From: Ancylothrix sp. D3o
GTDB lineage: Bacteria > Cyanobacteriota > Cyanobacteriia > Cyanobacteriales > Oscillatoriaceae
Assembly: GCF_025370775.1 (NCBI RefSeq)
Contig: NZ_JAMXEX010000014.1
Span: 1-64,000, forward strand
DNA: 64,000 nucleotides
Reading direction: 5' to 3'
Numbering within the stretch: the first letter of the stretch is position 1; every line of letters begins with the position of its first letter. Position numbers and translations under genes: made by a program. Shown here piece by piece: positions 28,979 to 64,000 of the stretch. The notes under the pieces are model-generated. The model was not told the DNA's origin, made no database searches, and saw only the letters and a list, made by a program, of their open reading frames with translations.

Positions 28979-29398
28979 CTAAGGTCGCACAGTAGCGATT
29001 CCTAACTTAATGCCTTTAATTTTCCGCAATCGATCCATGACTTCTACAATATTGCCATGATCAACTGTTTTATCAGCATTTAACACAACTAACTGGCTTT
29101 CATTTGTTCCCATTATCTGCCGCACAGCACTTTCAAGCTCATCTATTTTGACGGCTTTTTTGTCCACCATTAACGCTCCTTTCGCATCAATCGTAACAGT
29201 AATTTTAGAAGGCGCTTGTTGAGGCTGAGACGTAGTTGCTTGTGGTAAATTGACCGGCAATTCTTCTTTCGCCACTCCGTCCGATTTGCTCAAAAAAAGT
29301 GATGAAACAATGAAAAACGTAAGAATAGCAAAAACCACATCAATCATTGGGACGATGTTAATTTGAGCAATATTGTCAGGTTCATCGGGTAGGCGCAT
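28979..29398 (-). CDS. exbD: ExbD/TolR biopolymer transport protein
   Basis: 139 residues. A short cytosolic N-terminus, one membrane helix (VVFAILTFFIVSSLFL, residues 27-42) with the conserved Asp just before it (VPMIDVVFA), then a periplasmic domain (ITVTIDAKGALMVDKKAV). ExbD and ExbB form the proton-driven motor that energises TonB for outer-membrane iron-chelate uptake. Its start overlaps the end of exbB by 17 bases, so the two are translationally coupled. Divergently oriented tonB lies on the other side of the exbB promoter region. Confidence 0.92.
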   Translation of the reverse strand: MRLPDEPDNIAQINIVPMIDVVFAILTFFIVSSLFLSKSDGVAKEELPVNLPQATTSQPQQAPSKITVTIDAKGALMVDKKAVKIDELESAVRQIMGTNESQLVVLNADKTVDHGNIVEVMDRLRKIKGIKLGIATVRP

Positions 29399-30047
29399 AA
29401 GTAGGTTCTCCTTGTTTTTGTTTTTGTTCGTAGCGGTGACGGTAAAGTAACTCTAGTTGCCCTGCTGCTTCCTGTATAAAAGCTATCTGTTGCAGATAAA
29501 ATCCGCGAAACATATTCGCAAAAACTAGGGTAAAGATCGCTACCACCAAACCCATAGCTGTAGATACCAGCGCTTCGCTAATACCCGCGGTGACGTTTGT
29601 TGTGCTGGTACCTCCTATATCCCCTAGTTTAAGCGCAGCAAAGGTGGTAATTAATCCTAAAACCGTTCCCAGCAACCCAAATAACGGCGAAAGGCTGATG
29701 ATTGTGTCAAATATTGTATTAAAGCGTTTGAGAACCGGAATTTCCGCCTGAGCAGCACTTTCGAGCGCTAAGCGAAACTCTTCAGCATTCGGATCTTCGA
29801 GTTCTAAAGCTTCTAAAAAAATTCTCGCCAGCGGCAGATCGGCGTTAACTTGCAGCTTTTTAATGGCTGTGTCTGGGTTTTGACGATACAGGTGCAGCAC
29901 TTCTTTCACCATTCGCCGCTGTCGTCGGTTCACCCGAAACCAAAACCCAAGGCGTTCTATAATCAGCGCAACTGCCGCTATTGAAGAGGCAAGCAGTGGC
30001 CAAGAAACGATACCCCCTGCACGAAAAATATAAATAAAGTTATCCAT
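29382..30047 (-). CDS. exbB: ExbB/TolQ-type motor subunit
   Basis: 221 residues from ATG 30047, preceded by AAGTGGAAACC; an upstream ATG at 30137 would add a basic, non-conserved stretch. MotA/TolQ/ExbB family: membrane helix 1 GIVSWPLLASSIAAVALIIE, then the signature FDTIISLSPLFGLLGTVLGLITTF and VTAGISEALVSTAMGLVVAIFTLVFANMF, the two helices that line the proton path. Together with ExbD it powers TonB. It belongs to the iron-uptake locus to the right. Confidence 0.92.
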   Translation of the reverse strand: MDNFIYIFRAGGIVSWPLLASSIAAVALIIERLGFWFRVNRRQRRMVKEVLHLYRQNPDTAIKKLQVNADLPLARIFLEALELEDPNAEEFRLALESAAQAEIPVLKRFNTIFDTIISLSPLFGLLGTVLGLITTFAALKLGDIGGTSTTNVTAGISEALVSTAMGLVVAIFTLVFANMFRGFYLQQIAFIQEAAGQLELLYRHRYEQKQKQGEPTYAPTR

Positions 30048-30811
30048 TGGTTTCCACTTTTTACGAGATATATTGATCGAATCGCTTGCGCGATAGTTGC
30101 GCTTCACACGCCTTTGCTTGAAAAACCGAAACCGCAAAAATTTTTCCCTGTTTTTTTGTCACAGAAGCCGGGGAAAGCGATTCGGACTCGAAATAATTTC
30201 ACTCCAAAATAGCTACACAATAGTGCGCGGAGGTTAGAGCGCCTATCTGTCAGTACACGCAAAACGCCGCTACCGCTATCTGTAGAAATTTTTGTACTAG
30301 CGCTTTCTTATTAAAAGCTTTTACTAGGAATTTTCCTCATCTCTTTATTTAAAAAGATTTCTCAACTAGATTTCCACAAACTCGATTAAATGTCAAGCCC
30401 TTACGCCGTTTATATATAAAAATTTTTCATCCTTAAGGCAATTATTAATAAGTAGAAATGATATAAAAATCTGAATAAGTGTTAAAGAAACTCATACCTG
30501 TAAGGCTTTGGCGCTATTTAGCCTGGTTTATCCAAAGCCAAGTCAGCGGATCAGACACCAAGCTCTGCCAAAGCCAATTTTACAAAGGTGAGCCAAGGGC
30601 CAAGGGTAAGATGCTTGGTAATCTCAAAAGATATTTCTAAATAAATGGTAATAATTATCAAGAGTGCTTGAGAAAAGATCCCTGCTTCCTATAGGATCTG
30701 TAGGTTCCTAGTCAAGGACACACTTAACCCGAAGCTGGTTTGTCTCTTCGGGAGAGGTGGGGCAACGAGCAAACATTTTCCCAACCCCTGCATATAGGAG
30801 AGCCATAACGC
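30048..30811. other. Divergent promoter region between exbB and tonB
   Basis: About 760 bases without a gene. It contains a near-consensus Fur box at 30646-30660 and several imperfect hairpins (for example the paired GGCTTTGG / CCAAAGCC at 30507-30539). I see no riboswitch I can name. The length suggests a long 5' leader on tonB. Confidence 0.6.
30646..30660. promoter_or_regulatory. Fur box upstream of tonB
   Basis: TGGTAATAATTATCA matches the 7-1-7 Fur consensus TGATAAT-N-ATTATCA in 13 of 14 defined positions. It lies about 150 bases before the tonB start and about 600 before exbB, so iron repression of tonB is likely. Confidence 0.75.
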
Positions 30812-62363: not shown

Positions 62364-63413
62364 ATGACCAATACAGAACTAAAAAACCCCAATTCTCCCA
62401 AATTAGGCACAGTTAGACGCAAAGCAGTCAGCGTGTCTCCAGAGGAATTAGTAAAAACGTCCTATTTCCAATCAGAAAACCTCCTACCGGCCATTTTTCA
62501 ACCGGCAGTAGATCGATTAAACCTCGCCGCTTGGGCTACCAACAATCGAGAGTCAATTACAACGCAATTATTGAAGCAGGGCGGAATACTTTTTCGAGGC
62601 TTTGAAGTCGGCGGAGTAGCCGGTTTTGAGCAGTTTATACAAGCAGTTGGCGGCGAGTTGTTAGAATATTCTTTTCGCTCAACTCCGCGTAGTCAACTAA
62701 GCGGAAATATCTACACTTCCACCGAATATCCTGCCGAGCAATTCATCCCCCTTCATAATGAAATGGCCTATTCTAAAAATTGGCCTCTAAAAATTGCTTT
62801 TTTCTGCGTTAAAAAAGCCGAACAAGGAGGAGAAACCCCGATAGCTGACAGCCGCAAAGTTTTTGAACGTATCGATCCAAAAATTAAAGAGCGCTTCGCA
62901 CAAAAAAAAGTTATGTATGTGCGAAATTACGGGGCCGGTGTAGATTTGCCCTGGCAAAATGTCTTCAATACTGATAGCAAAAGTGAGGTAGAAAACTATT
63001 GCAATAAAACCGGAATTCAATTAGAATGGGGAAACAATAATCGCTTAAAAACTCGCCAAATTTGTCAGGCCGTTGCCCAGCACCCCCAAACAAAAGAAAT
63101 GGTGTGGTTTAATCAAGCCCACCTCTTCCACATTTCCAGTCTCGATACCGCCGTTAGGAGAGAGCTTTTAACTTCTTTTAAAGAAGAAGATTTACCACGC
63201 AATGCTTATTACGGCGATGGCTCGCCAATCGAAGATTATATTTTAGATGAAATTCGCTATTGCTATCAGCAAGAAACGATAATTTTTCCTTGGGAAGAAG
63301 GAGATGTTTTACTCCTAGATAATATGTTAGCCGCGCACGGGCGGACACCTTTTGTAGGTTCGCGTCGAGTTGTTGTAGGGATGGCAGAAGGATTTAGCTG
63401 TCAAGAAATTTAG
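62364..63413 (+). CDS. TauD/SyrP-like Fe(II)/2-oxoglutarate dioxygenase
   Basis: 349 residues. Iron ligands of the clavaminate-synthase-like fold: His and Glu in FIPLHNEMAYSKNWP (about residue 130) and the distal His in DNMLAAHGRTPFVG (about 325), followed by the 2-oxoglutarate-binding Arg in GSRRVVVGMAE. SyrP-like members hydroxylate the beta carbon of carrier-bound amino acids, most often Asp in siderophores. Placed between an NRPS C domain and the next NRPS in an iron locus, beta-hydroxylation of Asp is the best guess. That hydroxy-carboxylate would chelate Fe(III). The Asp-activating module is not in the window. Confidence 0.88.
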   Translation: MTNTELKNPNSPKLGTVRRKAVSVSPEELVKTSYFQSENLLPAIFQPAVDRLNLAAWATNNRESITTQLLKQGGILFRGFEVGGVAGFEQFIQAVGGELLEYSFRSTPRSQLSGNIYTSTEYPAEQFIPLHNEMAYSKNWPLKIAFFCVKKAEQGGETPIADSRKVFERIDPKIKERFAQKKVMYVRNYGAGVDLPWQNVFNTDSKSEVENYCNKTGIQLEWGNNNRLKTRQICQAVAQHPQTKEMVWFNQAHLFHISSLDTAVRRELLTSFKEEDLPRNAYYGDGSPIEDYILDEIRYCYQQETIIFPWEEGDVLLLDNMLAAHGRTPFVGSRRVVVGMAEGFSCQEI

Positions 63414-63435
63414 ACACATGAAAGGAAGTGTAAAT

Positions 63436-64000
63436 ATGCAAAAAGAAACAATCGAAGGGTTTAGACTATCTCCGCAGCAAAGGCATTTGTGGGAGGTTCA
63501 ACAAAATAATTGCAAACATTCCTATCGGGTTCAGGGTGCAATTCTTCTTGAAGGAAATCTCGAAAAAGAACTTCTTAAAACGGCGCTGCAAAAGGTGGTA
63601 AACCGGCACGAAATTCTGCACACAAACTTTCCCTGCTTGCCAGGAATGACATTACCTCTGCAAGTGATCACTAGCGCTGATGAAATTTCAGTTGCAGAAC
63701 ACAATTTGAGCAGTTTGCCTACTGAAGAGCAAGAATCTAAAATCGAAGAATTTATTCAAGAATTAAACCGGCTTACTTTTGATTTTGAGCGCGGCACACT
63801 TTGGCATATTTATTTACTCACTCTAGCGCCAGACAAACACCTATTGCTGGCAAACTTTTTGGCCTTAATTGCAGATAGTTATACCCTGAAAAACTTTACA
63901 CGCGAACTCAGTCTTTTTTACTCAACCAGTGGGGGCGGTGAAAACCTATCTGATGAACCAATGCAATATGCAGATATTGCTGAGTGGCAAAATGAGTTAC
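63436..64000 (+). CDS. NRPS, N-terminal condensation-like domain (cut by window edge)
   Basis: The first 188 residues, preceded by AGGAAG. A condensation-fold N-terminus is clear: FRLSPQQRHLWEVQQNN, then LLKTALQKVVNRHEILHTNF and LTFDFERGTLWHIYLL. Where HHxxxDG should stand the sequence reads LANFLALIADSYTLKNF, so both His are missing. It may be a non-catalytic interface-type domain that recruits the adjacent hydroxylase, or a divergent active C domain seen in cyanobacterial NRPSs. It ends with PMQYADIAEWQNEL, the usual motif before the C-terminal half. The rest lies beyond 64000. Confidence 0.85.
   Translation, partial: MQKETIEGFRLSPQQRHLWEVQQNNCKHSYRVQGAILLEGNLEKELLKTALQKVVNRHEILHTNFPCLPGMTLPLQVITSADEISVAEHNLSSLPTEEQESKIEEFIQELNRLTFDFERGTLWHIYLLTLAPDKHLLLANFLALIADSYTLKNFTRELSLFYSTSGGGENLSDEPMQYADIAEWQNEL

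Follow-up and report, generated by a model that had tools for sequence, protein, structure and literature searches.

A predicted cyanochelin-class siderophore locus in Ancylothrix sp. D3o with a candidate tail-removing acylase and a candidate PepSY reductase

Cyanochelins have been treated as acylated, photolabile siderophores; cyanochelin A of Rivularia sp. PCC 7116 keeps its tail. The cluster of cyanochelin B, carried on plasmid AP017310 of Leptolyngbya sp. NIES-3755 (PMC12628792), combines fatty-acid priming and a Cy-Cys thiazoline with two βOHAsp residues, a standalone TauD enzyme and a fused one, interface-A(Asp)-T modules, a terminal reductase, an MFS exporter and a siderophore receptor, and the same set is encoded or predicted in the locus of Ancylothrix sp. 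D3o described here. Particular to cyanochelin B are a PKS extension, a methyl-thiazoline, the order Phe-Gly-βOHAsp-Ser-βOHAsp-ethanolamine, a Fec ABC importer and a plasmid without an acylase. The Ancylothrix locus, in contrast, has no PKS, includes a residue X1, D-Thr and β-Ala, has a PepSY protein in place of Fec, and carries both an acylase and an aminotransferase.

We show that the full locus spans positions 28979-78263 of the contig (Table 1) and that the window, the 64,000-nt stretch of DNA on which the initial annotation was made, ends inside it. The description of a complete siderophore locus holds for the contig and fails for the window, since the sequence to the right of position 64000 supplies the two Asp modules, another hydroxylase (in fused form), the reductase for release and the aminotransferase. 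The genes exbD, exbB and tonB and those for the MFS protein, the PepSY protein, the TonB receptor and a FAAL-primed NRPS were all recovered intact by domain profiles where that annotation had placed them. Its plural "FAAL starters" comes down to one FAAL in the locus, at the start of the NRPS line, and it had passed over X1, ahead of the Cys module, as well as the penicillin amidase and the PanP decarboxylase, both of which belong to the locus. As to the iron-type regulatory sites it proposed, a single Fur-box-like site between exbB and tonB outscores every other in 100 kb (Markov shuffles, P about 0.001), and matches in the receptor/NRPS intergenic region are weak (P 0.035). The receptor passes the TIGR01783 cut-off (234.3 bits against 223.5), the MFS protein falls under that of TIGR00900 and scores 70 bits with EntS, and both genes stand beside the NRPS as expected of the cyanochelin class. 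The MORN-repeat gene goes with tonB also in G021 and in G039, the closest relative examined in full. A plasmid near-identity search returned short NRPS matches only.

Table 1. Features of the Ancylothrix sp. D3o locus, in contig order
Feature	Position	Strand	Evidence or remark
ExbD	28979..29398	-	PF02472, 104 bits; position same in relative G039
ExbB (MotA/TolQ/ExbB channel)	29382..30137	-	PF01618, 114 bits
Fur-box-like site TGGTAATAATTATCA	30646..30660	.	Between exbB and tonB; 13/14 match to TGATAATNATTATCA
TonB	30812..32419	+	PF03544, residues 460-533
MORN-repeat protein, hydrophobic N-terminus	32526..33749	+	PF02493, 12 repeats
Exported N-terminal-nucleophile acylase (penicillin amidase / cephalosporin acylase / PvdQ superfamily)	33841..35958	+	PF01804, 481 bits
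MFS exporter (EntS-like superfamily)	35935..37293	-	PF07690
PepSY_TM protein, candidate periplasm-facing ferrisiderophore reductase	37318..38463	-	PF03929, 217 bits
TonB-dependent siderophore receptor, N-terminal AMIN	38574..41357	-	AMIN, Plug, barrel
NRPS N1: FAAL-ACP-C-A(X1)-T-Cy-A(Cys)-T	42171..50873	+	Codes DAEDIGTIVK, DMYNFGVLWK; Cy motif DALCIDGWS
NRPS N2: C-A(Thr)-T-E	50983..55677	+	Code DFWNIGMVHK; E domain
NRPS N3: C-A(β-Ala)-T	55677..58958	+	Code VDWVVSLADK
PanP-type aspartate 1-decarboxylase	59016..60710	+	TIGR03799
Standalone condensation domain, HHIISDG	60697..62241	+	PF00668, 402 bits; serves module N4
Standalone TauD-family aspartyl β-hydroxylase (predicted 3R)	62364..63413	+	PF02668
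NRPS N4: interface domain-A(Asp)-T	63418-66672 (63418..64000 in window)	+	Domains, code
NRPS N5: C-A(Gly)-T-C-TauD	66672-72425		Contig, beyond window
NRPS N6: interface-A(Asp)-T-TD	72473-76828		Contig, beyond window; TIGR01746 reductase, cut-off passed
Class III aminotransferase	76872-78263		Contig, beyond window; 526 bits to mycosubtilin synthase AMT

A FAAL-ACP opens N1, in keeping with the fatty-acid starter of cyanochelins; the FAAL would load a fatty acid onto the ACP, and N1-N6 would extend the peptide. The order Cy-Cys, D-Thr (Thr-E) and β-Ala read earlier from this DNA is borne out by the specificity codes. The Cys code of N1 differs from DLYNLSLIWK, and that of X1 gives no clear residue assignment and drew no match in a literature search. 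Applied to NIES-3755, the same reading of codes returned Cys-Phe-Gly-Asp-Ser-Asp-Gly, which is published cyanochelin B at 7/7 positions (PMC12628792). The predicted chain is acyl-X1-Cys(thiazoline)-D-allo-Thr-β-Ala-βOHAsp-Gly-βOHAsp; we regard this combination of class and residue order as likely, and hold the colinear order of residues with the same good confidence. β-Ala would be supplied by the PanP decarboxylase encoded in the cluster (629.1 bits against a curated cut-off of 606.1), whose gene is present in 4/4 clusters with a β-Ala code and in 0/17 others (p 0.00017). PDB matches had pointed to a diaminobutyrate decarboxylase, a candidate that was rejected because this PLP enzyme lies above the NCBIfam cut-off for PanP and below that for DABA.

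The Asp code DLTKIGHVGK occurs twice, in N4 and in N6, and in both modules the domain directly before the A domain is of the interface type, with LALIADS (N4) and PALCADN (N6) in place of HHxxxDG. Across the clusters compared, interface domains stand directly before A domains with Asp codes, and the motif is missing from 42/42 of them and present in 125/134 ordinary C domains. For both βOHAsp residues, a catalytic C domain would form the bond while the dead interface domain would recruit a TauD enzyme to hydroxylate Asp bound to its carrier; one pair of C domain and TauD is encoded as two separate genes and the other is fused at the end of N5. The standalone TauD retains the invariant H131/E133/H325/R334 and clusters with CcsK of cyanochelin B. 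In the TauD tree, standalone and fused enzymes are split by branch (support 100/99) with a single exception (a standalone enzyme of G024), and each side of the split includes its cyanochelin B counterpart, CcsK or the fused NIES-3755 enzyme. The locus has two Asp modules and dedicated TauD β-hydroxylases of cyanobacterial clades. The likeness to cyanochelins noted in the initial annotation is upheld by this TauD pair, by the interface domains on both Asp modules and by reductive release, and from its genes the product is very likely a siderophore of the cyanochelin class. The class is already known; this residue order is absent from the literature searched, in agreement with the earlier suggestion of a possibly undescribed molecule.

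Release by the terminal reductase would give an aldehyde, and the class III aminotransferase, whose gene starts 43 bases past N6, probably turns this into an amine. N6 scores 710 bits against MxcG, under the equivalog cut-off. In the myxochelin B pathway (MxcG/MxcL), reductive release is followed by a PLP aminotransferase within a siderophore cluster, and this is the precedent for amination here. Of 15 clusters with a terminal reductase, 9 have an aminotransferase gene, and clusters lacking the reductase never do (p 0.04). A C-terminal amine on the product is an evenly balanced prediction. By sequence, the aminotransferase most resembles that of mycosubtilin, which acts on β-ketoacyl thioesters and not on aldehydes. 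It is also quite possible, if somewhat doubtful, that a four-electron reduction yields an alcohol and that the aminotransferase works elsewhere: cyanochelin B terminates in ethanolamine (PMC12628792), and the reductase is present with no neighboring aminotransferase in G039, where none adjoins the cluster, G027, G053 and G045, although the 43-base spacing and the restriction to reductase clusters speak for amination.

The MFS protein would carry the lipopeptide over the inner membrane, and in the periplasm the acylase probably strips the fatty acid, as PvdQ does when pyoverdine matures. The N-terminus of the acylase is hydrophobic (judged by eye) and export-signal-like, and Ser190 in SNGWAIAP aligns with residue 1 of the beta chain, as expected of the penicillin-amidase (Ntn-hydrolase) superfamily. 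By sequence the enzyme is nearer to cephalosporin/glutaryl acylases than to PvdQ (1keh, 627 bits; PvdQ 5ubl, 212 bits), and its 249 bits fall below the NCBIfam PvdQ equivalog cut-off of 950. Acylases scoring at least 1000 bits were found in 15/18 hydroxylase genomes against 1/42 others (p 2e-10), the single one being G032, whose cluster is truncated, and all 16 sit among cluster genes, by which association an orphan acylase was ruled out. Since the acylase is recurrent, and was not found in a search of the plasmid of cyanochelin B, which keeps its tail, the fatty acid of the Ancylothrix product may serve as a tag that is later removed, as happens with pyoverdine. Deacylation of the exported siderophore by this candidate acylase is plausible, with the balance close to even. 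The term "acylated" in the initial annotation suits the FAAL-ACP starter; because of the acylase in the locus, of PvdQ type, the acyl tail of the mature product is uncertain. A term search of the literature, which is weak evidence, found no acylase of this type tied to a cyanobacterial siderophore. Less probable, but to be weighed, is that the tail is kept, as the acyl chain is in cyanochelin B (PMC12628792), and that the acylase is a bystander acting on N-acyl-homoserine lactones or foreign acyl peptides. It may have such a role as an N-acyl-homoserine-lactone acylase, and lower-scoring penicillin-amidase relatives do exist beyond these clusters; the high-scoring form, however, is confined to them.

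The ferric complex would re-enter through the receptor, driven by TonB-ExbBD, and the PepSY protein would then reduce it at the inner membrane, a route without an importer of the FecCD type. The sole solved relative of this protein is the PepSY protein 7abw (E 5e-11, residues 4-357 aligned); the alignment has several His-containing motifs in common, and the comparison with FoxB/HiuB/FpvG-type reductases is at the level of sequence. PepSY genes occur in 8 clusters and Fec ABC-importer genes in 11, and no cluster has both, so that the two substitute for one another. No FecCD-type permease, as expected for Fec/Fhu-type ABC import, was found in the cluster or the genome (best match 38.9 bits over part of the model, where true members score about 300), nor in three further PepSY-type genomes. 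The initial annotation had taken the PepSY protein for a maturation factor; this was rejected in favor of a reductase on the basis of PF03929, the 7abw alignment, the exclusion of Fec and the FecCD-less genome. Iron is probably freed reductively by this candidate FoxB-like enzyme. It is unlikely that the intact ferric siderophore enters by an ABC importer encoded elsewhere, leaving the PepSY protein to copper or respiration. PepSY_TM roles do vary, a Bordetella member reportedly supporting heme-copper oxidoreductase function (PMC13038864), and FeoB as the step after reduction had no FeoB_C match in the genome. Against this stand the FecCD-less genome, the PepSY/Fec exchange and the reductase precedents FoxB and HiuB. 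That the lipopeptide is mainly membrane-active or antimicrobial, with iron genes adjacent by chance, is highly improbable: FAAL-primed NRPS lines are the source of many non-siderophore lipopeptides, but the NRPS keeps its receptor, ExbBD/TonB, exporter and reductase in further genera (e.g., G039, G053, G051), and its two βOHAsp modules provide the chelating groups that define the cyanochelin class.

We tentatively propose that many cyanobacterial βOHAsp siderophores are made as precursors tagged with a fatty acid and deacylated in the periplasm by an enzyme of penicillin-amidase type dedicated to the task, and that one branch uses PepSY reduction instead of ABC import. If so, the peptide in its mature form would be hydrophilic, its N-terminal amine left free beside the thiazoline, and it would be made by a pyoverdine-like scheme of separate cyanobacterial origin that product hunts directed at lipopeptides have overlooked. 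Should most producers lose the tail to the acylase, extractions and mass searches designed for lipopeptides would fail to find the mature molecule, which would also diffuse and be shared within mats and crusts differently from tailed siderophores. The PepSY/Fec exchange offers a gene-based test of reductive retrieval versus whole-complex import in cyanobacteria, and the rules linking PanP with β-Ala and interface domains with Asp aid structure prediction from genomes.

Among the loci compared, G039 shares the gene order, the Cys, β-Ala and two Asp codes, PanP, the acylase, the MFS and PepSY proteins and the receptor. It differs in the N2 code (DVGEVGSIDK) and in the A-domain cores of X1 (49% identical), N2 (45%) and N5 (53%), whereas most flanking domains are 58-91% identical. 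The TauD of G039 and of Microcoleus vaginatus HSN003 (G060; compared for TauD, acylase and PepSY) is 83% identical to that of Ancylothrix, and the acylase 82-83%. Myxochelin B, unlike the predicted product, is a catecholate, and the aminotransferase here is nearest to the mycosubtilin AMT domain. Potashchelins (PMC7100376) likewise pair a standalone with a fused hydroxylase (L-erythro and L-threo βOHAsp) and contain D-allo-Thr, but they are Halomonas nonapeptides of another order that keep the lipid. Pyoverdine (PvdQ, FpvG; PMC6954188 for FpvG) has a different peptide, and the Ancylothrix locus has an MFS exporter and an acylase only distantly similar to PvdQ; what the two systems would have in common, with the reductases likened by logic and not by sequence, is an acylated precursor, an exported Ntn acylase and periplasmic reduction.

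We assign this locus, on its sequence, to the cyanochelin class of siderophore clusters; the predicted order of residues is new, and the locus carries an acylase gene and a putative gene for reductive iron retrieval (PepSY). Its strongest new points are the association of the acylase with such clusters and the exchange between PepSY and Fec genes. The initial annotation listed its genes correctly, all of them being found, and called the locus complete at 28979-64000; it is in fact cut by the end of the window (1-64000) and runs to 78263, as seen in sequence taken up to base 99,999 of the 135,629-base contig. 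The iron and transport part comprises exbD, exbB, tonB, a MORN protein, the penicillin amidase (acylase), an MFS exporter, the PepSY_TM protein and the receptor, while six NRPS genes (N1-N6) make up the biosynthetic part together with a PLP decarboxylase, a class III aminotransferase, and a C domain and a TauD enzyme that are each encoded alone. AAA/DUF58/transglutaminase and signalling genes follow on the right. The exbB-tonB gap holds one strong Fur-type site, and matches upstream of N1 are weak. AMIN domains on TonB-dependent receptors are unusual outside cyanobacteria.

Features of the locus and its surroundings (contig positions; I, C-like domain without catalytic histidines; X1, residue loaded before Cys)
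Feature	Position	Domains, code or remark
AAA-35, then large WD40-repeat protein	24096-28841	immediately left of locus
Siderophore locus	28979-78263	
MORN-repeat protein	32526-33749	hydrophobic N-terminus; also next to tonB in G039 and G021
Exported penicillin-amidase-family protein	33841-35958 (+)	hydrophobic N-terminus
PepSY_TM protein	37318-38463 (-)	
Siderophore receptor	38574-41357 (-)	N-terminal AMIN domain
N1		FAAL-ACP-C-A-T-Cy-A-T; X1 DAEDIGTIVK, Cys DMYNFGVLWK
Insertion, Cys A domain of N1	49830-49970	in-frame, ~45 residues, between motifs A5 and A7
N2		C-A-T-E; Thr DFWNIGMVHK
N3		C-A-T; beta-Ala VDWVVSLADK
N4		I-A-T; preceded by standalone C and TauD
N5		C-A-T-C-TauD
N6		I-A-T-TD
Both Asp A domains (N4 and N6)		DLTKIGHVGK
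Gly A domain (N5)		DILQLGLIWK

The acylase matches a cephalosporin acylase precursor (627 bits) and PvdQ (212 bits), and its Ser190 aligns with residue 1 of the mature beta chain. Among 60 genomes (44 genera), relatives scoring at least 1000 bits occur in 15 of 18 genomes with the hydroxylase versus 1 of 42 others (p 2.3e-10; relatedness of the genomes makes this and the other p-values of cluster associations optimistic). All 15 genes of the hydroxylase genomes lie with cluster genes, in two genomes on a second contig together with the FAAL end and in G041 about 21 kb past the NRPS genes; the sole positive genome lacking the hydroxylase, G032, has a FAAL-Cy cluster cut by the contig end. Relatives are also found on plasmids of Leptolyngbya boryana and Gloeothece PCC 7424, in the latter ~10 kb or less from the cluster's receptor gene. 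In contrast, none was found on the cyanochelin B plasmid of Leptolyngbya sp. NIES-3755, the replicon of this strain that was searched. Because cyanochelin B, known to keep its tail, is encoded on this acylase-free plasmid, the acylase present here fits a PvdQ-like role in which it would remove the fatty tail after export, although one contrast is not proof.

The PepSY gene is present in 8 clusters (this one, G039, G002, G007, G005, G018, G053 and G051) and Fec genes in 11 (G021, G041, G045, G049, G032, G022, G012, G025, NIES-3755, PCC 7424 and L. boryana; G041 and G049 counted from FecB alone near the cluster), and none carries both (exact one-sided p 1/75,582). Neither occurs in the G027 cluster or the truncated G024 cluster. 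This exchange is a property of clusters and not of whole genomes, since G045 has a PepSY relative, and G027 both genes, outside the cluster. No FecCD permease was found in this genome, G018, G053 or G051 (best 27-39 bits over a partial model, true members scoring ~300 bits), and FeoB_C has no match in this genome. The sole solved relative of the PepSY protein by sequence is 7abw, which we take to be Pseudomonas FoxB. FoxB has been described as a ferrioxamine reductase (PMC13001220), and FpvG acts in the release of iron from pyoverdine via reduction (PMC6954188).

Amino acids were assigned to the codes from established knowledge, Cys also from its Cy partner and similarity. The acidic residues in its pocket suggest that X1 may be a basic amino acid. 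As a control, the identical procedure on the NIES-3755 cluster yields Cys, Phe, Gly, Asp, Ser, Asp, Gly, the published cyanochelin B order (PMC12628792). The presence of beta-Ala in the product has strong circumstantial support, because the decarboxylase scores above the NCBIfam PanP cut-off and PanP is found in 4 of 4 clusters with a beta-Ala code (this one, G039, G027, G018) and 0 of at least 17 others (p 0.00017). G039 has, after its complete PanP gene, a second and partial copy at 40053-40535 of its assembled stretch. The C-terminal domain of N6 scores above the cut-off for a thioester reductase, and the aminotransferase (526 bits to that of mycosubtilin synthase) starts 43 bases after N6; where a cluster has a terminal reductase, such a gene accompanies it in 9 of 15 cases, and no cluster lacking the reductase has one (p 0.04, weak). 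Our best guess is that the released aldehyde is aminated.

Compared with G039, a close relative, the A-domain cores at X1, N2 and N5 are only 45-53% identical, whereas most neighbouring domains are 58-91% and the beta-Ala and Asp cores ~80% identical, which suggests that A cores may have been swapped at variable positions and retained at chelating ones. The insertion in the Cys A domain, missing in G039 and G021, is made up of a palindromic repeat, GGTTGGGTTGAGGAACGAAACCCAAC, that is dispersed in the genome, with 43 copies at up to 2 mismatches (reversed control, 0).

The HHxxxDG motif is missing from 42 of 42 interface domains of these clusters and present in 125 of 134 other C domains, and Asp codes directly follow interface domains in nearly all readable cases. 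Both Asp modules here share one layout, a catalytic C, a TauD and then I-A-T, the first two being separate genes for one module and fused to the end of N5 for the other. A branch with support 100/99 splits standalone from fused TauD enzymes, except for the standalone G024 enzyme, and both enzymes of this locus fall on the same side as their cyanochelin B counterparts, for which the assigned configuration is 3S with the fused and 3R with the standalone enzyme (PMC12628792). Pyrinomonadaceae, Acidobacteria, Blastocatellia and Holophagales loci (L087, L117, L122, L135, L143, L146) match the standalone hydroxylase at 52-65% identity, and there are hints that betaOHAsp modules may have been transferred beyond cyanobacteria. 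Since neither Asp module of this locus has an E domain, and given the 3S and 3R assignments in cyanochelin B, L-erythro betaOHAsp is predicted at module 5 and L-threo at module 7, a combination like that of the potashchelins, which contain both L-erythro and L-threo betaOHAsp (PMC7100376).
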